Part shown: positions 2,780 through 23,456 of the stretch, piece by piece | Layout: each line of letters starts with the position of its first letter | Numbering within the stretch: position 1 is the first letter of the stretch | Origin: Fragilaria crotonensis | Lineage: Eukaryota; Bacillariophyta; Fragilariophyceae; Fragilariales; Fragilariaceae | Reading direction: 5' to 3' | DNA length: 43,807 nucleotides | Assembly (NCBI GenBank): GCA_022925895.1 | Contig: JAKSYS010000526.1 | Location: forward strand, 1 to 43,807 | Notes under the pieces: generated by a model | Databases searched by the model: none | The model's input: the letters and a program-made list of their open reading frames with translations, nothing else | Told to the model about the DNA's origin: nothing | Position numbers and translations under genes: made by a program

Positions 2780-4903
2780 ATGCCGCACAGCAATGCTCCC
2801 GCCCTGTATTATGCCAAGGGCTCTGAAGAGGTTGCAAGTGAAACAGCGTTGACTTTGAAAAAGTTGGAACAGGTGAGTTAAACGTCTGTGGCCAGCCATA
2901 CCTCGCACCTGTTAGATATACTCTTGGGTACTGCCTGCTGGAGCCATGCTACCAGTACTTCGTATCTTGGTCGCCGTGCAACCTTCTGCGTACGGCCGGT
3001 ATTTCTCCTGATTTGAAAATTGAAACAAGTTGGTTCAGTGTCCTCTACTACGTCGAACGTCATTTGCCTCAAGTCTCTCAGACCTCCTTGTACATTCACC
3101 AATCTCTCTCTCACACACTTGCAACTCCCGATGACATGATTTATTGTAAATAATGCCAGCGACGCAATCTAACACGTGACTCGGAGCGCCTCATCATTGT
3201 CCTCGTCGGCCTCCCGGCGCGCGGCAAATCATTCATTTCCCGCAAACTCCTTAATTTTCTCAATTGGAGTGGGTACGCCTGTCGAACCTTCAATGTTGGG
3301 AAATACCGTCGCGAGGCATATTCACACGCTGCGGAAGAGGGCGAAAATGAGGCCCGAGCAGAAGTGGGTGCGTGCGATGCCAACTTTTTTGATTCCAAGA
3401 ATGAAGCCGCGGCCAGAATGAGACAAGAGGCTGCCGATCTGGCACTCCGGGATATGTTGAAGTGGTTGGACCGAGAAGATGAAGCGATGGACGACGACTC
3501 GTCCATTTCGCACAAGCCCGGAGTGGACAGGATTGCCATTTTTGATGCCACGAATTCGACGAATGCTCGGAGGACCTGGATTTTGGAAGAAAGCACATCT
3601 CCGACTAAACGCGCGGGAAAGGCAACTGGCGTGGTGTTTGTCGAGAGTATCTGCGACGACGAAGAGCTGCTTCGACAAAACTACAAATTCAAGGTCAGCA
3701 GCAGTCCTGATTTTAAGGACATGGACGAAGAAACGGCACTGCAAGACCTCAGAAACCGCGTTGCCAAGTATGAAGAAACCTATGAGACGATCACCGACGA
3801 CAGCCAATCGTACATCAAGATATTCAACCTTTCATCCAAGCTCATGGTTAATCATATCTACGGTCGCATGGCAAAGGTGATTGTACCGGCTATCATGGCT
3901 TGGAATGTTGGCACGCGCCCGGTTTTCCTTTGTCGTCCTGGCAAGACGCCCCATACAGTCCGAACTGATGGAGAGGACTACCTCTTGCGCAGCGATAGCA
4001 GGATTTCAGATCTGTCCAGTCACAACAGTCGAAAAGGTAGGGCAGAAAAGCTCGGACCGGAGGGTATTCGCTTCCGCGACGCGCTGGAAGAATTTATGCG
4101 AGACGAGGCCCTTGAATTTCTAATGAAACAGCAGGCCATTGCAAGCCACCCAGCTCTCTATACTGGTACTTCCATCACGGGCCTCTCGTCGTTCAGGCGG
4201 GAAGTTGGGTTGCACGGCGATGAACTACCGTTCGCGTGCACGATTCTAACGAGTACCATGCCTCGCGCCGCAGATACGGCAATGTGGGAAACATTCAGTT
4301 TTCCAGTATCGATGAATCCTCACCTCAATCCACTCGATAAGGGTGACTTTGAGGGTATGGAGCTTGATGAAATCCGCGTTGAAGATCCCAAATGGTACGC
4401 TCGTTTGGAAGCGGATCCGTATGCGACTCGGTAAGTGGGCCAATTGCAAAATGTGTTGGTGCGTTGGTGGCCGCATGTCTCACGAACCCTGCATCTGTAG
4501 CTTTCCCGGTGGCGAGTCGTATAAGGATTTGATCAAGAGACTGGAGTCACCAATCATTGATTTGGAACAGCAAACTGCGCCAGTACTCATCGTCAGTCAT
4601 GTCAGTGTGTTGCAAGCTCTAATTGCATACTTTCGTCAGTCTCCTGCCGATCAGTGCATGAATATTGAGGTACCCATGCATACGGTTCTCAAGTTTACGC
4701 CGTCACGAGGAGGAGGTTGGGTGGAAAGCCGCCATGATTTGATTCCCGAAGACGACACCCAAGTCAACGCCGAAGAAAAGATTTATTCCATCGCATCTGA
4801 ATCTGAGCTTAGTGCACTTTCCTTCGTCGATCAAGTTGCGTCATCACCTATTTGGGGCGACCATATACCGACATCACCAGTCTCGCACAAGATTGTGCGA
4901 TAA
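2780..4903 (+). CDS. PFKFB: 6-phosphofructo-2-kinase/fructose-2,6-bisphosphatase, phosphatase site degenerate
   Basis: Three exons, 2780-2872, 3160-4430 and 4501-4903 (introns 287 and 70 nt), give 588 residues. The family makes and breaks fructose-2,6-bisphosphate, the cytosolic switch between glycolysis and gluconeogenesis. The kinase half is intact by eye: Walker A GLPARGKS at residues 48-55, then FNVGKYRR, NFFDSKNE and IFDATNSTNARR. The bisphosphatase half is recognisable (RFPGGESYKDL, IVSHVSVLQALIAYF, PMHTVLKFTP). However, the phospho-histidine motif LCRHGE reads LCRPGK, with Pro291 where the catalytic His should be, and the region matching the acid/base Glu reads NPLDKG (about residue 422). 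His488 and Arg400, matching other phosphatase residues, remain. The likely result is a kinase-only enzyme. The short leader before the kinase lacks an obvious targeting signal. The convergent neighbour ends only 91 bp downstream. Confidence 0.93.
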
Positions 4904-8095: not shown

Positions 8096-10423
8096 AACAA
8101 CGAGATGTCCACATAAGTCCGAATGATGTTTGGTTCAGTCCCACCACCAGCTGTGTTCTTTGTTGGTCAAAGATGTTTACTCAGTGAATGGACGTGTCAG
8201 CTGTCAAAGGCACTTGAGGGACGAGCCATAGACCTCCATAGACCCATTCTCATAGTTTCTGGTGCCTTGTTGTCACACCGTATCCAGCCACCAAATCTCG
8301 TGAAGTGAACCAGCCAGCATATCATACTCCTCCTCCTGACAGAATATGATGATCATATTCTCATTGCAATACACTCCTGCCCTTACCTTTAATGTAGTGC
8401 ACTACAGTATACTATCATTACTAGTATCTGGTACTACAATACAATGGCCATGTATAGTACGTGGATATACCAGTAGACTACCAATACAACAATACAGTGC
8501 TACAATAGAACACTGATCCTGTCTGACAGTACAACTGTACAACACTATGTGATTAAACAGTAGTTATGAGAACTTACCTTGACAACTATTGGAGTCTCCA
8601 TTAGACTCCAAGAATATCAAAGAAGATCATTTTCAATCCCATCAAGGATTGGAGTGATCTCAAGCTTGTTGTTAATCAGTCTCATTACTTTTAACCTACA
8701 TTCATCACTCTAACAAACTACAAAACTTTTCTGCAACGAAAACTGCTGATAACTTCAAACATAGGGCACTCATCACCTCTTCAAACCCCCCCTGGGGAGG
8801 AGGAGACGAGGATTTCACCTTTGGGACCTGTCAATAGTATCTAGGCTGCTGGCAATGAACAAGAATTGCTTCTACTAGGTCTCATTGTCCAACTACTAGG
8901 TACTATTACAACTACTTTTTATGCCTTTCACATTATTCTTCCTTGGTGTACATTATATGGCTGTATTAGTAGATTGCCTGCTTTATCCTTTTTATCCACA
9001 CAATTTTCTGATTTAGTTTTCACTAATATGTTCTGTCAGTCATCCGTAAATGTGTACACCGAATAGGAACTTGTCACGTACCCCATCACCGCTGACCATG
9101 ACCGTTGTAGCGGCTTCACCAACCCCGTGGCAAAGTTATCCCAAGCACCATTTGTGTGGTTACTTTCGTGACGATTGGGAAGCAAGAAAGCTTGAATCCA
9201 ACCAAATCAGAAAGGTTTCAGATGATGAATGCTATTGTATGAATGCCCATGCCAATGCTTACCATCACTTTGGAAATCCAAGCGGATGGAGTCAATAGCT
9301 ACTAGTACATTATTCTCGGTTGCTTTGTTTCGGAGGACTTTGGAGAATAAAAACGATAATCCTGGATAAGGAACCCCTCTTGGTGCACACCAGAGTAGCA
9401 CCTGTGGTGTCGATCTCTATTGCTTCTTCTCACCTGAGCCATAAAGAATCTTGTTTCTGTTAGCAGGAGTTAGGCTCCTCCTCAGGATTCAAAAACTGAA
9501 TCCTCCTCTACACCTTGCCTTTCAAATGTCAACAATAATCTCAGATCGGGTATCATTATTTCTCCGACCAGAGCTCGTCCCCTGGACTCTCAATACACTT
9601 CTTCTACCAATACTACAGTGGGAGTGGTTGATGAATGAGTAGTAGCCCATCCATTATCTCAGAAGCATGGCCAACATCAGGAGAGAGAAAAATGCCATCA
9701 TCACAGAGCTTGTGCTCCAGCAGCATGTGCGATCCAAATGGAAGGGGGGTCAGTTTAGTCAACCCAGCACCACTTTCCAGCCTCCCTCGGATACACCACT
9801 CAAGACTGCCAAAACAATCTTGACCTATGCTAACCGTGGGAGTAGCAACCTATGGGGATGAATGGGATTCTTTCAACAAACACAACTCTTTCAGTACTAG
9901 GAAGGATCCGCTAGTAGAGAATTGTTGCTGTCCCACATGTGGGTAACAGTCCCGAGATATGAATCCACATAACCCAATGTTGTCCTTATGCTGACTGAAT
10001 GGAATGGTGAATGACCACCTTGGTTGCAATCGATGCTACATGTGTGGAATAGCACAAGGATCCTCAATTATGTCAAATCCTACGCACCTCAGTCGCCGGC
10101 TGGTAGTTTACACTCGTTACTGTACACGACATGAGACCAGCTACTGTCGCTCGTACTCCAGTACGCTAGTATTCGTGTGCACCCCCTTCATACTGTACCC
10201 CTACTCCAGTACAACTTTGAGCTCGGAGTACATTGTAGCAACTTGTATGCTGTATATTTCGTGTTTGTTACTGTGCAACGCAGTACAAGTACTGGAAGGT
10301 CCGGCCCAAGCACGTTTCGCGATTAACAAGATGTACCTTAAGGATGTGCGCGCCAGCTAATGACCGGCCGGCGTGATGAGAGCTTGTTAGGATCTTTGTC
10401 GTATCATTCGAGCTGGCAAGGTT

Positions 10424-10690
10424 CAGCAAATGTCAGCAGATTTCTTTTTCGTCAGCAAATGTCAGCAGATTTGCTTTTCGTCAGCAAATGTCAGCAAACT
10501 TGATTCTCGTCAGCAAACGTCAGAAGATGTCAGCATCACCGTAGCTTTTGTACTGGAAAAAACTCGTTTTCGTCATCATATGTCAGAAAATGTCAGCAGA
10601 TTCGAATTTCGTCAGCAGACGTCAGCAAATTCGTTTTTTGTCAGCGGATGTCAGCAGATCTGTCTTTTCGTCAGCAAGTGTCAGCAAAAC
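10424..10690. repeat. 29-bp tandem repeat, CAGCAAATGTCAGCAGATTT type
   Basis: Four consecutive units start at 10424, 10453, 10482 and 10511, exactly 29 bp apart: CAGCAAATGTCAGCAGATTT plus a CTTTTTCGT-like tail. After a diverged stretch with an insertion (about 10530-10575), further imperfect copies continue to 10690. Each unit holds an internal duplication of the word GTCAGCA. Because 29 is not a multiple of three, the open frame crossing it (10430-10870) is unlikely to be a protein. Confidence 0.85.
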
Positions 10691-11101
10691 GACGATGACG
10701 CTGGCATAACCAGTTTAGCACCAGCCAGACACAGAACGGAAATGATTTTCGCCTCCGGCCAGCGTGAATTCGACCTTGATTCACGACTAAGCGTGTATTG
10801 CCGGACCTTCCTGGAGAACTCGTGCACTAGAGTAGCTACGGTAGTACCTGGTATTACTTGTAATATATAGAATAGGCGGAAGGCGGATGAGATATCTGGA
10901 ATGGAAATTCTCATTCCTATCTACTCTATGCATATACTGTACTCAAGTACAAGGTCGTGCAGTAGAATTGCATAAGTGCCCTACCATGGTACTCGTACGT
11001 ACGGTGCAATAGTCCAATTCATGAATGACTTGACATCTGACAATTTGTTCTCTGTCGTCAATTCTTTGAAAGAATAACTTCATTGCCTCGCCACTGCTAC
11101 C

Positions 11102-12468
11102 ATGGCAGATGCAGAGACTCTCGTTCAATCTGTTATCGACCTGCTTGATGTGCTGGTTGATCTGTATCTGGGGTCGTTGGTCAAACCCTTTCTTCGGTTT
11201 CACGATGAATTCTCTTCCGACGTGAACTCCATCCTCGATGACAACAAGGACAACATTCCTGATTGGCTTACTGGAAACGCCAGCGCCTACCTTCGAGTGT
11301 TTTTAGTATTTCCTACCATCCTTTTCCTTTCATGGGGTCAGCTCGTCATTCCTTTCTTGTTTGTGGTCATGGTCGATTTATTGGGCTTGCTGGGTTCTGT
11401 CGTTGCCAAATTTTGGGTAGATGCCAAGCGAGATCATGCCGAGGATGTAGTTAGGGAGGACGACCGTCCAACCAGTAAGTCTTTCACGCCCTCCGATGAT
11501 GATAGTATGGATAGTTACGAGTTCGGTGAGTTGATGTCCGGTATGTATGCAACGTACGTGTTAGTTGTCGCCCCTCATTTTTCTTCTTTATCTAGAGGTG
11601 GTAACAACTGGATCTCCTCAGCGGATGAAATCATGGAGTCTAACTCATCGATATCGATCACGCGCTGGGTTCCTGGATGCGGCCTGCGATAAGGCCTTCA
11701 TTATACCTTGTTGGATCTACCTTCTGTCGACAGTCCCGTCAGGGCAATATCGAACCATCAAATATGTTTCACTGTTTTGGTTAATCGTGACTGAGTTGGC
11801 CAATGGATGCCTTCAATTTAAGACCTTCTACGCAGGTAGTGGTGTCCCACAGGTTGAGGGTGATGTGTTTCCATTGAGTAGCATCAGCGTAAGTTGATCA
11901 TGTTTCGGAATGTCGACGGGTTTCTTCACTCGGAATGGTTTTGTCACTCATGATTTATTCGCAGCGTGAAAAGCTCAGCGCTTTGAAGCGAAGCTTTGAA
12001 ATGTTGGGGACTGCCTTGTTCATTTTGCCTTATTTCCGTTTTCTTGGTGTGACCTTGCTGCTATTGGCATGTCCCTTGGCCTATAAATCGTTTCGCCGAA
12101 AAACGAAAAAGAGAGTTATTTACGTTGTGTGCACGCAATCCGAGAAATTCGACTACAAAATCATTAAATTCTGGAGCCAGGCCAAAGCCCTGGGAACCAG
12201 GTTGGTTGTTGGTGTCGTCGGAAAAGGTCAGACGGACATGGTATGCAATGCGTGTGCCACAGCATGCGTCGATGAAGTTATTGCAGAGGCGCCCGCCAAG
12301 GCAGATTTGATGTTTCTAGAAAGGCAACGAATCGACTATGTTGTCTTCATGTCGAGCCAGACGAGTTTGGTCACAGACGAGGTCGTTGCCATGGGCGCCT
12401 GCTTGGTGTTGGGTGATGATCATGTGGTCCGACCGATGAAGCCAAAGGTGGATTCCAAGAAGTTGTAA
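11102..12468 (+). CDS. CDP-alcohol phosphatidyltransferase/cytidylyltransferase-like fusion, catalytic motifs degenerate
   Basis: Three exons, 11102-11525, 11596-11888 and 11965-12468 (introns 70 and 76 nt), give 406 residues. A second in-phase donor (GTATGT at 11541) would add five residues. The N-terminal half has the membrane-embedded layout of CDP-alcohol phosphatidyltransferases: an opening NIPDWLTG...LRVFLVFPTILFL, a helix ending VDLLGLLG, then FLDAACDK and the late REKLSALKRSFEMLGTALFIL. Against the family signature D-xx-DG-xx-AR...G-xxx-D-xxx-D, the last two Asp are present, but the DG-xx-AR part reads LLGLLGS. The C-terminal half (RVIYVVCTQ...QAKALGTRLVVGVV...CVDEVIAEAP...IDYVV) matches ethanolamine/choline-phosphate cytidylyltransferase folds, but the HxGH nucleotide-binding motif reads DYKI. 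Both halves therefore look non-catalytic, or changed in chemistry. A role in phospholipid head-group metabolism or its regulation is inference. Confidence 0.75.
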
Positions 12469-12880
12469 GACATTCTCCAAGTGCTTTCGTCAACCTTGTT
12501 GCGGAGGCTTTTGCGTGTTTCTATTGTCTCTAGACGCAAACGACTGACTATATGCTACGTGACACGACAATTGTAAACCTGACATAGAGATTCATTCCCT
12601 GTAGCTGATGCATCGTAGCACAACAACAACAACAACTACAAACATATCTGTTTCGAAGAGCTGTGAACCTGCGGTTTTGGCAGATGCAGCCAGGGCAGTA
12701 TGCGTAGTGACGTCAATCAAGCGTTTCGTTCCTCCTTATTCAACAAGTAGTCGTTGATCGAGAACGCATATCTACGATCTCGCAATGAACGCTCACAAAA
12801 CAACCTCGCTGAAAGGTGGAGCTATCAGATTTGTTGTGCAAAGGATTTTGTATCTTTGTGAGCGCTTTTCAGCAATCTAC
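12469..12880. other. Convergent intergenic spacer
   Basis: A 412-bp gap between two convergent genes. It contains a short CAA microsatellite near 12618-12634 and no convincing open frame. It should hold the 3' ends of both transcripts. Confidence 0.5.
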
Positions 12881-14370
12881 TTATACAATCAATAGCTTTG
12901 AATCAAGCTTTTGGATAGCAGACTCCACGTGTTGGCGAGCCCAAACATCGCACGCCAAAATATCATCAAGCGTGACACCGGTTGTCTTCAATTCATTCTT
13001 GTGAGCCTCCATTGCTCCTTCAATCAGTCGTGGAATGTCCAAGAAGCCAAGGCCAACATTGGCACGATACTTTTCATTAGCCGCTTCATTGGCTGCGTTA
13101 AGAACGGCAGTCATAGTGCCTCCTGCTCTTCCAGCTTCGTAGGCAAGTTCAATGCAAGGATACTTTTCCCGGTCAGGCTTCATGAAGGTCAATTTGCTAA
13201 GTTCGGCTAGATCAAGAGGTCTGTACGGCATCTTCAGCCGGTGTGGCCATGCAACAGAGTAAACAAGTGGTAACCTCATATCCGCCCATCCCAACTGAGC
13301 CAAACAAGACGTGTCCTGCGTCTCGATCATGGAGTGCACAATAGATTGTGGGTGAACGACAATATCAATGTCGTCGTAGCTAGCTCCGAACAAGTAGTGT
13401 GCCTCAATGACCTATATGGAGAGCAAGCCGGTGAGTTTGAGCAAGCAAAATGTCGTCAGAGTTGACAAAAATGGTGGCGCACCTCAAGGCCCTTGTTCAT
13501 CATCGTTGCACTGTCGAGCGTGATCTTGGCCCCCATATCCCAGTTAGGATGGGTCGTGGCCTTTGCTTGGACCGCTTTTGGGTCGTTTTGGCACATTGTG
13601 AAAAGCTCTTCTTTGCTCATGTCGCGGAATGCACCGCCGGACGCTGTGAGAATGATACGACGCAGCCCGCCTTCCGGCACTCCCTGGAGACATTGAAAGA
13701 TAGCACTGTGTTCCGAGTCGGCTGGAAGCATGTTGACACCGTATTCCTTAACCAGTGGATTAATGACTGGTCCTCCACTGATAAGCGTTTCCTTGTTGGC
13801 AAGAGCAATGTCCTTCCTGAGCTTGATCGCTTCAATTGTGGGTTTGAGTCCCGCCGATCCAACGATACCAGTAACAACAGTGTCAGCACTGTCGACAGTT
13901 GCGGCAGCAAGGATTCCTTCGTCGCCAAACATAATTTCTGGCATCTTTTGGCATCCAGCCGCCTTCAAGCGGTCTCTGAGTTCGTTGGCTGCTGCCTCCG
14001 TACTCATGGATGCAATCTTCGGGGCATATTTCATCACTTGCTCTGCCATGAGCGCAGCGTTGCTGCCAGCAGAAAGAGCATCGACAATAAAGTTGTTTGG
14101 ACATGCATCAACAATTTCCAGCGTTTGTGTACCGATGCTACCAGTGGATCCCAACAAGGACAATCGCTTTTGAAAATTCGCCCCCTCTAACGATTTGGCA
14201 AGTGTCTTTCTCATGGATGCCTCAGAGTTGACAGGAGCTGCTGGGTTCAGCAACCATCCTTCTCCAGTTCCCTTACTTCCAGAGATTGGAGCCACCAAGG
14301 CTCCAACTTCTCCGACACTCAAGGCGATCAAAACGCAGGTCGTTGTTTTGATCATTGTCATCGTCAACAT
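12881..14370 (-). CDS. dxr: 1-deoxy-D-xylulose 5-phosphate reductoisomerase, plastid
   Basis: Two exons on the minus strand, 14370-13483 and 13411-12881 (intron 71 nt), give 472 residues. DXR converts 1-deoxy-D-xylulose 5-phosphate to 2-C-methyl-D-erythritol 4-phosphate with NADPH, the first committed step of the plastid MEP isoprenoid pathway. Signatures are the dinucleotide-binding [64 protein letters not shown] (split by the intron before VIEAHYLFG), [11 protein letters not shown] and [13 protein letters not shown]. The first 25 or so residues form a signal peptide (TCVLIALS core), followed by VGALVAP. That resembles the diatom ASAFAP cleavage motif, with Leu in place of the usual Phe, so import to the four-membrane plastid is expected. 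A serine/alanine-rich transit stretch precedes the enzyme, whose length is normal. Confidence 0.97.
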
Positions 14371-15062
14371 CTTAGAATGCGGTATGATGTATGATGGTAT
14401 GATGTATGCTGATCATGATCGCAGAAATAAATTCTTGAGGAAGTTCAACATCCACTACACCTGGTCATACTGACCGTCGACAAATACGCTACGGGCTCTT
14501 GGAACTGAGTGCGTCACCGCGGGGGCTCCACGTATTGCGCCACTCCTGTACTCGGAGTATCATACCATACATACTGTGCGTGGTACTACCGGTACCAGTA
14601 GTACCTGTTAGCGCAACCCTTTTGATACGGCTCGATGACTGACCGACGACGAAAAAGTGGGCATGGTATGCTCATACCATGTACCTGGTACTGTACAATG
14701 TACAGTACTTTTTTGGCAATTACCGGTACATCGTATGAAAGTAGAACTGGAGTACCAGGTACGGTACCAGGTACTTTGATAGGTACTACTACTATCATAC
14801 TTGTACTCTACATGTGTACCAGGTACCATACAAGCTACATAGTAAATGACTGAGAGGACAAGTGCAATATACAACTTGCGTACAAATAGCGTTGCAGTAG
14901 GTCAGTAGGAGTATGATCTTCACATCTTCAATCCACACACTCACACACGCCAAAATCCAAAATGCAAGGTGCAGGCGTAAGGGTGGATGCGAATTTGCTC
15001 TCGTTTTCACGTTTTCCCAGCAAGCACACTGCACACCGCCAGGAAGACCAGGCAACAAGATC
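14371..15062. other. Divergent intergenic region with dense GTAC palindromes
   Basis: The gap between the divergent DXR and the membrane protein at 15063 should hold both promoters. It carries several hairpin-forming words: a 20-bp near-palindrome at 14662-14681, a 21-bp perfect palindrome around one central base at 14688-14708 (GTACTGTACA-A-TGTACAGTAC), and two adjacent GTACCAGGTAC copies at 14752-14774. No defined promoter element could be assigned. Confidence 0.5.
14662..14774. repeat. Cluster of GTAC palindromes
   Basis: CATGGTATG-CT-CATACCATG (14662-14681) is followed directly by GTACTGTACA-A-TGTACAGTAC (14688-14708). Two GTACCAGGTAC words lie at 14752-14762 and 14764-14774. All can pair internally. 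Similar words recur in most intergenic gaps of the window. Confidence 0.75.
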
Positions 15063-18789: not shown

Positions 18790-20180
18790 TCTTCCTAGTT
18801 TGTTCTCAACATCGCAAGTGCGTCCGACCGTGTATCCTCGGGTTGTGTTCAATCAGAGTTTGCTCCTTCTCGCTGTTGAAGCTTTTCCACTCGTTGCTCT
18901 AGGTGCTACAAAGATATACTCAGTGTACTTTCTTGCAATTATCCTTGCAGGTCAAAGGTCAAAGGCTACCCCAGCCTCCCTGTCTTCGACAAAAGTTCAA
19001 CAAGGCTGGTGAGAGGAAAAAAGATGATGGGGAAATGGCTTCTTCAACTAGAAATATTCTACAGGGGAATCAGTACTAATATGTCCCGTATCTTTAATTC
19101 GAGTTCAACAACAATGGAGGCGAATCATGGAGTATCAGGGAATCTCATACACGCTCCACTCGGAGCAAATAATCCTACAGTACTCAGTGTGCTACTGTAC
19201 AGGTTGCCGAGCTCCGAAGTGTAAATTCGAAATGTAAATCACACAACCGAGAAGTTGAAGTTCCTTCCATCCAAAGCTACGTAAAATAGTACCTGGTACG
19301 GAGGCGTGTACTGGATCATCACCATGGACGAAAATCATGGTCGAGTGCGATACAGAAATAATTGGCGACCTCGTTTCAAGACGATGATCTTGTGATTTTC
19401 AACAAGCTGAGCTAACCTACCTGATACGTCGGCGAGAGAAGCGGTTTTTTTAATACAATGAGAGATCAACAAACGACCTTTCACTTGTGTGTGTTGTTCG
19501 AATGGTTTCCGTCGCGGGAGTTGGTGAGCTTCGAGTGAGATGTCTTGCAGCTGGTTTCATGTTTCGTACTTAGAATCATCATGCCTGACATCACCTGTTG
19601 GAGTCGAATTGGTCCTCCGACGAGACGACCACTTCGACTTCAATGCATAGTGTATAGTGCATAGTAGCATAGTGCACACTCCGAGCCCCGAGTGAGGGAA
19701 GTACATCTGGACAGTATTAACATACTGGAGACTCGAGTATGTACAGTATGTATGTAAATATATAACAAAGGCCAACCCCATGAGCGAATACTGTATACTG
19801 TACACTCGAAGTACTCCAGTACAACAGTACAATCGTAACTGGTACTGCGGTAGTAGTACCTCAGTACATTCACATACCTACACTGTATGCATAATGCTAC
19901 TACTGGTACAGTAGAATGTGAGTGAAGGACCTGTTGCCTGTAAATTGTACGAGTAAATCATACATCATCCACACCTGTACTACAGTAGGCTATGACGTTC
20001 CAAGTTCCAATACCTGGTATAGCTGGTTTTGTGTAGTGAAATCCTGGCGCAGCACCCAGTACAGAATGTACGTATAGCCAATAGGAAATGAGGCTGAGAC
20101 ATTGCTTCGGAATATTGTCTCGTGTTGGAAGCCAGCGTTCCACAATGAGATTGAGCACCGCCGTTTGAAACATATTCATT
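18790..20180. other. Intergenic, no confident gene
   Basis: No open frame here looks like a real gene. From about 19640 to 19990 the sequence is low in complexity, with many GTAC, GTATGTA and TACAGTA words. A 73-codon minus-strand frame at 19958-20179 ends against the inverted repeat before the transposase. It reads somewhat protein-like but matches nothing I know. Confidence 0.45.
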
Positions 20181-20261
20181 CCTATCTATCGACTTACCCC
20201 CTGCAGTTGCCCTCCAAACTCTCTCAAGAACTGTGTTGCCGGGGTTAAGTCGATAGATAGG
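20181..20261. repeat. Inverted repeat abutting transposase start codon
   Basis: The left arm 20181-20200 (CCTATCTATCGACTTACCCC) pairs with the right arm 20241-20261 along its whole length, with one extra T in the right arm. A 40-bp spacer separates them. The right arm ends one base before the ATG of the transposase-like gene. It could be a remnant terminal repeat, a transposase-binding site or a 5' hairpin in the mRNA. No matching copy was seen after the gene. Confidence 0.85.
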
Positions 20262-23200
20262 ATGTCTGACAAAGGTAGATACTCTATCTTGACCGGTGCT
20301 ATCATGCTCATGCGATTGGACATCACGTACGGACCAAGATTATCAAATTGCTGGCTCCCAGCATCAACATTCGTTGAAGCATTAACCAAATTGAACCTCA
20401 TTGATGTTTCCCTCGCCATTGATGTGAGAAAGTTCAACAGCGCCATGTCCAAGTCCCCCTTGCTTGGAGAAGCAATCCATCAATTTGATGGATCCAATAT
20501 GACGGGTGTATTCAGAATTACGTTTCAAAAGACCTTCTTTTACTATTTCACTGAAGAATCAAGGCAGGTTCGGTACCCATTTCCCCTTAACAGTGCATGG
20601 AGGGACAAGGTAATGGAAGCAGCATCAAATGTGCTAGTCGTTCCAAGTACTAGATCGTGCAGAGCTGCTCCTGATATGACGACTACAACTGCTACCGACA
20701 TCGGACAAAACACTGAAGGGCAAGATGCAGAATCTCCAAACAAACGGCCGAGGGTAGGGGATCAAGATGCTGAGCTGCTTGTTGATTCTACTTCGGTTGG
20801 TCTACTATCAGGCTCGTACTGGCCCTGCAGTCCTGAGGCATATCAACTGTTCAAACCGAAGAAAACATGTACTCGGCTTAACGACAACTGCGAAATTGAC
20901 TGCGTTGATGATCTGGATTCTGAAACTCCAATGGAAGCGGTCCAGAGGCGAATCCTGTTGCTTCAAAGTGTTCACGAGAGGGAAGATAATTGGAGAAACG
21001 TTGTAGTTGGTCGCGATGATAACGATGTATGCACCAAGGCCGAGATCTGGGAAATTCGGCAACGAGCAACATTTCTTTGCTATGCCTACCAGTTGGCGCT
21101 CGAAAAAATGAATGAGTGGACGTGGCAAGACTGTTGTTCAAGCGCTTGTCAGCTTTTGAATTCCTTCGGGATGAAGCAAGCAAGCTTCTATAAAACAGTA
21201 TCGAATTGGAACATTGCATTCAGGAAGTACGAAAGCTTCCCGCACCCAAATCTGTCGGTTCAGTGTGGAAAGCAACCACTCCCTCGACTTCTCGAAGTGT
21301 ATCCCTGTGCAAAGGAGCAGATTGTTTCATTCGGTTTGAAGAACTTAGCGCATCTATCAATTGAAGCAGTGTATCAGTTCATTCTTTCGACAGTTGTCCC
21401 GAGACTTGCAGCTTTGTGGATAAAGGAATCACATGACGATGCTGCTACTACTAGTAGTACACCATCTAGTAGCAACAACTCTACCACCGGTGCAAATGAA
21501 GACAATGATGTGGTTTCCTTATTTCTTCGTGCACATAGACTTAAGAAATTTAGCTTCTCAACATCGTGGCGATGGATGCGACTGCTAGGCTTCGACTACA
21601 ACAATCGAAGAAAAAGCTATTATGTCGACGGCCACGAACGCGAGGATGTTGTGGCACATCGACACTCGTTCTGCAAGAATTACCTTACCATGCTTGAACC
21701 CTATTGTCGGCGCTGGATACAGGTTCCTCTGAGTGAAGCTGCAACGATGAAAACATTGGATGCGGATATTGGACACCACTATTTTGATATTATATCTAAC
21801 GAATCACGCGTTGAGTTTCACGTTGACTACTGGCGAAGCTGCCTTGCAAGACTCAAGGCTTCAGAAGAGACACTGCCACATCGGGAAATTGAAGCAACAA
21901 CCAGCATTCGAAAACCAACGTCAGTAAGGCCACTCATGATAATTGGTCAAGACGAATCAGTCTTTTCGCAATACCTCATGTCGTCGAAACAATGGATGGG
22001 ACCGAGGGGACAGGTGGCACTATTGCCGAAGTCTGAGGGTGACGGGTACATGCTTTCTGCATTTGTATCCCGTGAGTTTGGATTTGGAAGACAGATGACA
22101 GAAGACGAGTTAGCAGAAGTCAATATGAGAAGGCAAACGACAGCACTTGGTAGCGGGACTTACCGAGACACGATTGCGGCAATGGAAATATTGGGAACAA
22201 CAAGGAAACCCACTTTAAAAGAATCGCCGTTTGTAAAATCCTTGTTCATTGGTATCAACAATGAAGGATATTGGAACTCATATCATATGAGCTTACAGTT
22301 TGAGGATGTCATCGATTGCGTACGAGTTTTGTACCCCACCTTCGATTTCGTGTTCCTATTCGATCATTCTCAAGGCCATGCTCGCAGACGCGACGGCGCA
22401 CTCAATGCCCTCAGCATGTCAAAGAACTTTGGAGGAGCAGGAGCACAGCAACAAATGAGAGACACGTGCATAGCATCACAAGAGGGTTATCTCGGTTCAC
22501 ACTCACCGTCACTGTCTGTTGGCGATGTCCAATCAATGGTCTTCAAAAATGACGATGACGGCCCTTGGTACTTATCACCAGAGCAAAGGGAATTACAACG
22601 GTATGATAGAACCACAGGGAAAAGTAAGATGGTTGAGAAGACGAAGAAGATACTTCTCCAAGAACTCAATGATAGGGGTGTGACGCTCCAACAGAAACGG
22701 GGATACACGAAAGCAGAGCTCCAGGGATTGGCGAGAGAAAACGGAATTGAGACCGCCAATCAGGTTGACAAACTCCTACCAGGGTGGCAAGGAAAAGCTA
22801 AAGGTCTACTACAAGTTCTGCACGAAAGAGGTCTGTTAGATCCATCGATTTCAGACAAGTACACATTGGAAGGGAAGAAAGATGTCATTTCGGGAAAGTT
22901 TGACTTACAGTTATCGCTTCGCAGAATAATGTCTGAATGTTCGGATTTCAAGAATGAACAGACTGCCCTGCAGCATCTGGGATCACAGCTTGGAGTGCAG
23001 GTGCTTCTGACTCCAAAGTTTCACGCCGAATTGGCTGGGGAAGGCGTTGAATTTAGTTGGGGACACGCGAAGGCATTCTACCGGCGTATTCCTCTTTCTA
23101 AAAAGCGGGGACGAGAGAATTTTAAACAATGTGTGAGAGATTCAACTTGTCCCATCAATGAGTTGACTCAAGGAAGAATGGAAAAGTTTGCAGCACGAGC

Positions 23201-23456
23201 ACGCGCTTATATTTGTACTTACCACCATATATATCAGCAGTCTCAACAGAGAAGGCAACAGGATCATGCAAACGCAAGCATCCCTGCATTTTCAACGTCA
23301 TGTGACGATCCCGTGCTTCTGTCGTACTCAGACATCCAACATGTTTCGAAGCAATTCAAGACACACAGATGTGTCTTGGACTTTGATACTGGCTTCATCT
23401 ATGGTTCACTGAAAGAGGCAAAGCCTTGGAAGGATCATGATGTTGATGCTTCGTGA
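20262..23456 (+). CDS. DDE-superfamily transposase-like protein, single 3.2-kb ORF
   Basis: One uninterrupted frame of 1064 residues. The core resembles a family I recall from fungi and invertebrates whose members share YVDGHEREDVV, a DE pair, an FDNSSNH-like motif followed by MRDT, and a late PKFHCELNPIE block. Here these read YYVDGHEREDVVAHR, GQDESVFSQY (Asp564), LFDHSQGHARRRDGAL (Asp701), QQQMRDT, and PKFHAELAGEGVEFSWGHAK (Glu930), giving a plausible DDE catalytic triad for an RNase H-fold nuclease. The segment YTKAELQGLARENG looks like a SAP-like or helix-turn-helix insert. The first 200 residues are unlike known transposases. The lack of stops or frameshifts suggests a recent or still-active element, or a domesticated gene. 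The immediate 5' inverted repeat fits a mobile origin, but matching right-end terminal repeats and target duplication were not found. Confidence 0.8.
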   Translation: MSDKGRYSILTGAIMLMRLDITYGPRLSNCWLPASTFVEALTKLNLIDVSLAIDVRKFNSAMSKSPLLGEAIHQFDGSNMTGVFRITFQKTFFYYFTEESRQVRYPFPLNSAWRDKVMEAASNVLVVPSTRSCRAAPDMTTTTATDIGQNTEGQDAESPNKRPRVGDQDAELLVDSTSVGLLSGSYWPCSPEAYQLFKPKKTCTRLNDNCEIDCVDDLDSETPMEAVQRRILLLQSVHEREDNWRNVVVGRDDNDVCTKAEIWEIRQRATFLCYAYQLALEKMNEWTWQDCCSSACQLLNSFGMKQASFYKTVSNWNIAFRKYESFPHPNLSVQCGKQPLPRLLEVYPCAKEQIVSFGLKNLAHLSIEAVYQFILSTVVPRLAALWIKESHDDAATTSSTPSSSNNSTTGANEDNDVVSLFLRAHRLKKFSFSTSWRWMRLLGFDYNNRRKSYYVDGHEREDVVAHRHSFCKNYLTMLEPYCRRWIQVPLSEAATMKTLDADIGHHYFDIISNESRVEFHVDYWRSCLARLKASEETLPHREIEATTSIRKPTSVRPLMIIGQDESVFSQYLMSSKQWMGPRGQVALLPKSEGDGYMLSAFVSREFGFGRQMTEDELAEVNMRRQTTALGSGTYRDTIAAMEILGTTRKPTLKESPFVKSLFIGINNEGYWNSYHMSLQFEDVIDCVRVLYPTFDFVFLFDHSQGHARRRDGALNALSMSKNFGGAGAQQQMRDTCIASQEGYLGSHSPSLSVGDVQSMVFKNDDDGPWYLSPEQRELQRYDRTTGKSKMVEKTKKILLQELNDRGVTLQQKRGYTKAELQGLARENGIETANQVDKLLPGWQGKAKGLLQVLHERGLLDPSISDKYTLEGKKDVISGKFDLQLSLRRIMSECSDFKNEQTALQHLGSQLGVQVLLTPKFHAELAGEGVEFSWGHAKAFYRRIPLSKKRGRENFKQCVRDSTCPINELTQGRMEKFAARARAYICTYHHIYQQSQQRRQQDHANASIPAFSTSCDDPVLLSYSDIQHVSKQFKTHRCVLDFDTGFIYGSLKEAKPWKDHDVDAS

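Follow-up and report, generated by a model that had tools for sequence, protein, structure and literature searches.

An intact gene of three exons lies on the plus strand at positions 11102-12468 of contig JAKSYS010000526.1 of the diatom Fragilaria crotonensis, and its product of 406 residues, which contains no internal stop, is best read as a membrane-anchored pseudo-cytidylyltransferase, a reading to which we assign a probability of roughly 0.4. The window, i.e., the whole stretch of 43,807 nucleotides that was analysed, is one contig of an assembly of 62.1 Mb in 881 contigs. As judged from its sequence, the product would be a membrane protein that has about six or seven hydrophobic segments and ends in a soluble domain; this anatomy, a membrane domain joined to a dead cytidylyltransferase (CT) domain, we consider highly probable, and more so than any particular role for it. 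The first-pass annotation of this DNA had described the protein as a fusion of two phospholipid-enzyme folds with broken active-site motifs, and it quoted the motifs correctly, LLGLLGS being found at residues 93-99, FLDAACD at 167-173 and DYKI at 302-305.

The exon model presented in Table 1 was picked, for its consensus splice sites, out of 196 open exon models within the ranges tried. Exon 1 is contained in an open reading frame that extends from 11078 to 11692, and its start codon is found in the context ACCATGG. The use of an alternative donor of intron 1 at 11541 (GTATGT) would keep the frame and add five residues, giving a product of 411 residues. From the local stop frequency, a run of 406 stop-free codons is expected by chance with a probability of about 1.5e-8. 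The in-frame codon score is coding-like in exon 1 and exon 3 (0.202 and 0.231 bits per codon, respectively), as compared with real 97-codon chunks, which have a median of 0.181 and a 5th percentile of 0.013, and with presumed-noncoding ones, whose 95th percentile is 0.092. Exon 2 is neutral by this measure, given that its score of 0.013 bits per codon equals the 5th percentile of the real chunks and is lower than those of another plus frame (0.047) and of a minus frame (0.066); its own frame is nevertheless the sole stop-free plus frame, the other two being interrupted by 6 stops and, in the frame that scores 0.047, by 7. The absence of a codon signature in exon 2, together with the lost motifs and shortened loops described below and the failure to find a homologue in collections with few or no eukaryotes, would fit a decaying gene, or else a model that wrongly joins neighbouring exons. 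We regard this explanation as improbable in view of the 406 stop-free codons, the consensus splice sites and the coding signature of exons 1 and 3.

Table 1. Features of the gene and of its predicted product (positions in the window; CDP-AP, CDP-alcohol phosphotransferase; CT, cytidylyltransferase)
Feature	Positions	Strand	Residues	Content or basis
Exon 1	11102..11525	+	1-141	helix-like hydrophobic stretch at the N-terminus, first two hydrophobic segments, beginning of the insert
LLGLLGS	11378..11398	+	93-99	at the site of DxxDGxxAR in CDP-APs
Hydrophilic stretch (insert)	11411..11651	+	104-160	57 residues, contains intron 1
Intron 1	11526..11595	+		70 nt, GTGAGT...CTAG
Exon 2	11596..11888	+		rest of the insert, then FLDAACDK and the third and fourth hydrophobic segments
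FLDAACDK	11670..11693	+	167-174	resembles D3xxxD4 at the end of the CDP-AP signature
Intron 2	11889..11964	+		76 nt, GTAAGT...GCAG
Exon 3	11965..12468	+		fifth and sixth hydrophobic segments, CT-like domain, stop codon TAA
Putative degenerate CT domain	12106..12465	+	287-406	profile search, hhalign, BLASTP
DYKI	12151..12162	+	302-305	in place of CTP-binding HxGH; alignments
KGQT	12223..12234	+	326-329	may be what is left of the loop with the catalytic lysine; alignments
CVDEV	12265..12279	+	340-344	matches VDE of the RWVDE dimerisation motif

The identity of the C-terminal half, as a divergent relative of the CCT/ECT group that extends from about residue 287 to residue 406, was confirmed above chance by several kinds of sequence comparison. 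A profile built from 13 CT domains gave 22.7 bits with this half in hmmsearch (E 3.7e-9 for this one comparison), as against 11.3 bits for the best of 3000 shuffles, and a profile of the five eukaryotic-type CT rows alone gave 19.7 bits versus 13.0 for the best shuffle. When 561 open reading frames from the window and 13 other loci were ranked with the CT profile together with three spliced entries, the three entries of the 406-residue protein came out on top (22.7, 20.9 and 18.1 bits), and the next entry reached 3.4. Likewise, alignment of this half as a single sequence to a nine-row CT alignment with hhalign returned a probability of 96.1% (E 3.4e-9, 65 columns), and BLASTP against the ECT of the same genome gave 21.9 bits with an E value of 0.003. 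Among the single CT sequences used as queries, Plasmodium CCT (4zcp) scored 11.1 bits, the first domain of ECT (3elb, which we take to be human ECT) 9.3 and rat CCT (3hl4) 8.9, and in each case the score was beaten by none of 1000 shuffles. The remaining 13 of the 16 queries gave 5.2 bits or less, with negative values for two bacterial proteins and for two from the same genome, the latter pair being presumably NMNAT-like and PPAT-like, as they were labelled.

Curated collections are silent on this half: NCBIfam gave no match to it, Pfam offered no CT model and only RAI1 (E 0.11-0.21), a match that falls short of the cut-off of that family, and PHROGs returned two unrelated weak matches only (E 0.053 and 0.25). 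When the assembly as a whole was scanned with CTP_transf_like (E≤10), four places were marked, and the gene at 11102-12468 was not among them. The silence of these collections and the low scores of 13 of the 16 single queries count against our best explanation. The lack of a curated CT match, with the sub-cut-off RAI1 as best Pfam model, is the point in favour of a likeness that arose by chance or through some other alpha/beta fold, in which case the product would be a membrane protein of other descent that ends in a soluble tail. We give this only a slim chance, as the CT scores exceed those of the controls and VVGV, KG, VDEV and IDYV follow one another in CT order. The half of the earlier fusion proposal that concerned the CT therefore stood, with its 22.7 bits and its hhalign probability; the half that concerned a CDP-alcohol phosphatidyltransferase, as detailed below, found no curated match and scored close to shuffles.

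According to the available part of the source (PMC6060094), HxGH and RTEG(I/V)ST(S/T) are CT signatures, RWVDE is a dimerisation motif conserved in all cytidylyltransferases, and the K663A mutant of Plasmodium CCT is practically inactive. In the alignments of the C-terminal half the HxGH position is occupied as given in Table 1, which agrees with the loss reported by the first-pass annotation, and RTEG(I/V)STT, too, is without a counterpart after IDYVV; a loose RTEG(I/V)ST(S/T) pattern found nothing in the six frames of 9500-13500. The elements VVGV, KG(Q), VDEV and IDYVV are kept in the order that they have in CTs. The KGQ lies 7 residues nearer to VVGV than in CCT and ECT, and the same three letters are read in Plasmodium CCT; its lysine is to be compared, at this shifted spacing, with K663 of Plasmodium CCT and K122 of rat CCT. 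Of RWVDE, VDE is retained and RW is replaced by AC. The stretches on both sides of KG are each shorter by about 7 residues and the C-terminal region, too, is cut short, for which reason the dimer surface may not survive. Since both HxGH and RTEGISTT are lost, synthesis of CDP-choline or CDP-ethanolamine by the CT-like domain is not expected; the domain is probably catalytically inactive, and the word pseudoenzyme is a fair one for this half.

It had been considered beforehand that intact motifs might be recovered under a different exon model, and the remaining frames of 10391-12468 were checked for them, as were GT/GC-AG junctions of 30-900 nt within it. HxGH appeared only at eight artificial junctions, with acceptors at 12231 or 12365, which lie beyond VVGV and remove the start of the CT, and DGxxAR, a part of the CDP-AP signature, appeared at a single junction placed inside the CT half; all of these were discarded.

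The identity of residues 1-286 as a CDP-alcohol phosphotransferase (CDP-AP) is possible and unproven. Hydropathy gave six peaks at residues 64-82, 83-101, 167-185, 196-214, 243-261 and 265-283 (values of 0.97-2.38, for ranges chosen by hand), and a seventh at residues 6-24 (1.42) that has no place in the six-helix CDP-AP scheme, whose signature is carried by helices 2 and 3. FLDAACDK starts the third hydrophobic segment, as FLDPVADK does in the PgsA-like protein of the same genome, and EKLSA is found where that protein has GKVKT. The order of the segments and the position of FLDAACDK appear to be the sole solid likeness of this half to CDP-APs.

The CDP-AP signature, as given in the available part of PMC4634129, is D1xxD2G1xxAR...G2xxxD3xxxD4, with eight residues that are absolutely conserved and D4 as the likely base. 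In the N-terminal half D3, D4 and at best one A are in register, i.e., no more than three of the eight; D1, D2, G1 and R are gone, and G2 is displaced by one residue. When the insert is left out, the profile alignment pairs GSVVAK (98-103) with DGxxAR, the A being kept and the R replaced by K. The hydrophilic insert itself contrasts with the CDP-APs of the same genome, in which AR and G are separated by about 8 residues. Neither DGxxAR nor GxxxDxxxD was found at 9500-13500. Searches with Pfam (E≤10) and NCBIfam gave no match for this half, PHROGs returned for the piece tested only a family of unknown function (E 1.7), and PF01066 identified eight other places in the whole assembly at E≤0.001 and not the gene at 11102-12468. 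As a separate observation, the CDP-alcohol phosphotransferase genes on contigs C670, C740 and C75 look nearly identical, which may reflect a recent duplication or uncollapsed alleles.

Scores of the N-terminal half with CDP-AP profiles were within those of hydropathy-preserving shuffles or marginally above them. The uncut half gave 3.1 bits with a nine-row profile, equalled by 25 of 2000 copies after local shuffling and by 8 of 1000 after full shuffling, and 4.5 bits with a 14-row profile, equalled by 8 of 2000; residues 141-286 alone were equalled by 4 of 2000 (nine-row) and 2 of 2000 (14-row). With hhalign the uncut half reached probabilities of 0.98% and 2.1% over 22 columns, and only the region of FLDAACDK was aligned. 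After removal of the insert, a single copy scored 11.1 bits, a value attained by none of 3000 decoys, the best of which reached 10.8, and the alignment, which then spans segments 1-3, rose to 12.3 bits, as good as which were 2 of 600 decoys that had been given equal freedom (89 variants each). This alignment is not counted as proof, given that the cut was chosen after seeing the sequence and that 2 of the 600 decoys match it. Forced global alignment was of no help, since between 8 and 375 of 1000 decoys, varying with the profile and the settings, did as well. With two CDP-AP profiles the open reading frame of exon 2 ranked first of the 407 reported (7.0 bits) and second of 396 (6.0 bits), and the spliced N-terminal half fourth and sixth among the reported frames; the decoy loci of this ranking were the 13 loci picked by the FLDAACDK pattern, a choice that biases it against the CDP-AP reading.

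An exact scan for [FY][LF]DAACDK in 84,980 species genomes returned 13 stretches, 7 of them in open frames of fewer than 60 residues; in none was DGxxAR found within the 40 residues before the peptide, and the viral contig collection contained no stretch of this kind. As far as these sequences indicate, the peptide FLDAACDK alone is no marker of the CDP-AP family. The statement that the first half lacks DGxxAR and keeps FLDAACD is right as to the letters and did not carry over to the family assignment.

These results bear on the proposal of the first-pass annotation that both halves are degenerate Kennedy-pathway enzymes, a CDP-AP and a CT, and that such a paired pseudoenzyme acts as a lipid sensor or regulator. 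The overlay of the six segments on the CDP-AP order, the placement of FLDAACDK and EKLSA as in the PgsA-like protein, the ranks of the exon 2 frame and the insert-free scores all point to it; it is weakened by the near-shuffle scores and low hhalign probabilities of the uncut half, by global alignments that 8 to 375 of 1000 decoys equal, by the missing DGxxAR upstream of every peptide of the FLDAACDK type, by the few signature residues in register, by the seventh peak and by the silence of PF01066 at this gene. We see it as a tentative possibility: the pseudoenzyme reading is fair for the CT half, and for the phosphatidyltransferase half it depends on a stretch of 22 residues and on segment order. 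It is far less probable, indeed very improbable, that the protein is an active enzyme of great divergence, one or both of its halves being catalytic with substituted residues. The retention of D3 and of the likely base D4 (PMC4634129, in the part available), a possible catalytic lysine in KGQ and the intact frame are compatible with activity; D1, D2, G1 and R of the N-terminal half are lost and its G2 displaced, and HxGH and RTEGISTT are lost from the C-terminal half, all of which argues against it.

With regard to copies and homologues, the whole protein, the C-terminal half and a piece from exons 2-3 were each searched against the assembly at E≤10 and matched only themselves. Six patterns of 8-residue peptides from exons 2-3 found one stretch in the viral contigs and 36 in the genome contigs, none of which was confirmed; tblastn against phages gave no homologue, and a profile that included the row of the 406-residue protein itself added nothing in the PDB. 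These peptide patterns detect close relatives only and the collections hold few or no eukaryotes, for which reason absence says little. The same genome carries, on contig C104, an ECT in which HFGH and RTEGISTTD are present, and besides it no other gene of the CCT/ECT type was found in the genome, these counts being lower bounds.

According to our preferred reading of a membrane-anchored pseudo-cytidylyltransferase, an integral membrane protein would carry a C-terminal soluble domain derived from the CCT/ECT fold, which, without HxGH and RTEG(I/V)STT, would carry out no cytidylyl transfer and which keeps, in sequence, the core strands and the VDE of the dimerisation motif. Through the conserved CT dimer surface this domain could pair at the membrane with the intact soluble ECT of the genome; or it might bind a nucleotide or a CDP-alcohol without turnover, as a sensor. 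The outcome would be that a step of the Kennedy pathway is placed or tuned at a membrane. Such a docking or regulatory mechanism, though the likeliest, is doubtful as it stands. A fuller version, in which a diatom lineage fused two successive enzymes of the Kennedy pathway, a CDP-alcohol phosphotransferase and then a cytidylyltransferase, a long loop split the phosphotransferase signature and both sites were lost, so as to give a membrane regulator or scaffold that docks ECT, seems unlikely. Pseudoenzymes of the CCT/ECT and CDP-AP families seem to have been little explored, and, if our reading is true, a dead CCT/ECT domain on a membrane protein would suggest a diatom way to place or meter the CT step. 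With orthologues that keep the motif losses, the protein would be a regulator open to testing; should there be none, it would be a fast-decaying oddity of one genome.

Several other features of the window and of the assembly were recorded. Positions 10294-10811, about 290 bp upstream of the gene, are occupied by a MITE-like repeat whose terminal inverted repeats of 12 bp (GGAAGGTCCGGC) are perfect and in which a GTCAGCA-rich unit of 29 bp forms two arrays. At least 46 matches to this repeat, including itself and fragments, were counted in the assembly (40 of 134 candidates scored; the query was the element with its flanks), and the near-full copies are 88-100% identical with mostly the same borders, which suggests a recent burst. 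On the minus strand, 12881-14412 encodes a 1-deoxy-D-xylulose 5-phosphate reductoisomerase in two open frames, convergent with the gene. On the plus strand, a 6-phosphofructo-2-kinase / fructose-2,6-bisphosphatase-like gene is found at 3154-4434, and probably goes on to 4903 in another frame, and an open frame of 1095 residues at 20169-23456 has no Pfam match at E≤0.001. In the assembly Silic_transp has 19 matches (best E 4e-193), as against no score above the cut-off in any of 14 named prokaryote controls, and by this yardstick the DNA comes from a diatom. Silicon transporters appear fused in places, with three matches in one frame of 1456 residues (C97) and two in a frame of 1008 residues (C771).

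Compared with known systems, the protein is closest to CCT/PCYT1 and ECT/PCYT2, to which it owes its top single-sequence similarity; the likeness runs from the first helix to IDYV and includes VVGV, KG, VDE and IDYV. It differs from them in the absence of HxGH and RTEGISTT, in two shortened stretches and in the attached membrane domain, and it is related to CCT and ECT, not by motif a member, as neither HxGH nor the RTEG signature is found in it. The second CT domain of the genome's own ECT is an earlier example of a degraded CT domain next to a good one: with exons joined by eye, it seems to read HCAH at the HxGH site and to lack RTEGISTT; in contrast with the protein described here, that domain keeps GDFD, KG and NER and is part of a two-domain enzyme. 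With the CDP-APs (PF01066) the protein shares the order of hydrophobic segments and the likeness of FLDAACD to D3xxxD4, and it differs from them in the lack of a profile match, in the loss of D1, D2, G1 and R and in the insert of 57 residues instead of about 8. Among the papers listed, none describes in its title or abstract opening a diatom or fused CT/CDP-AP protein, and none was found on pseudoenzymes in a CDP-alcohol/phospholipid or cytidylyltransferase context, in searches that leave most subscription journals outside. The two families are also paired in a bacterium, on plasmid pSN35N-3 of Lactiplantibacillus plantarum, where the genes for a tagD-type cytidylyltransferase and a CDP-alcohol phosphatidyltransferase overlap head to tail.

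The remark of the first-pass annotation that no protein of this kind had been described needs to be narrowed, as the joining of a CT to a CDP-AP is not wholly new and archaeal cases exist in the reverse order. As presented in the available parts of PMC4634129 and PMC8633023, Af2299 and AfDIPPS (IPCT-DIPPS) of Archaeoglobus have a CT or CT-like domain fused to a six-helix CDP-AP, and they are structurally solved CDP-APs with metal-binding aspartates. Their CT-like domain is N-terminal, whereas in the 406-residue protein it is C-terminal and the CDP-AP signature is not intact. When the PDB was searched with the CT profile (E≤10), Af2299 did not come up; this means that the CT-like domains of the two are not closely related, and it gives no hint that the fusions share an origin. 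A chimera with the CT-like domain of Af2299 offers a useful parallel, as the helix 2-3 loop of its CDP-AP is packed against that domain (PMC4634129, in the part available), and, if the CDP-AP reading is right, the long insert of the diatom protein would fall, by analogy, in the corresponding helix 2-3 loop.
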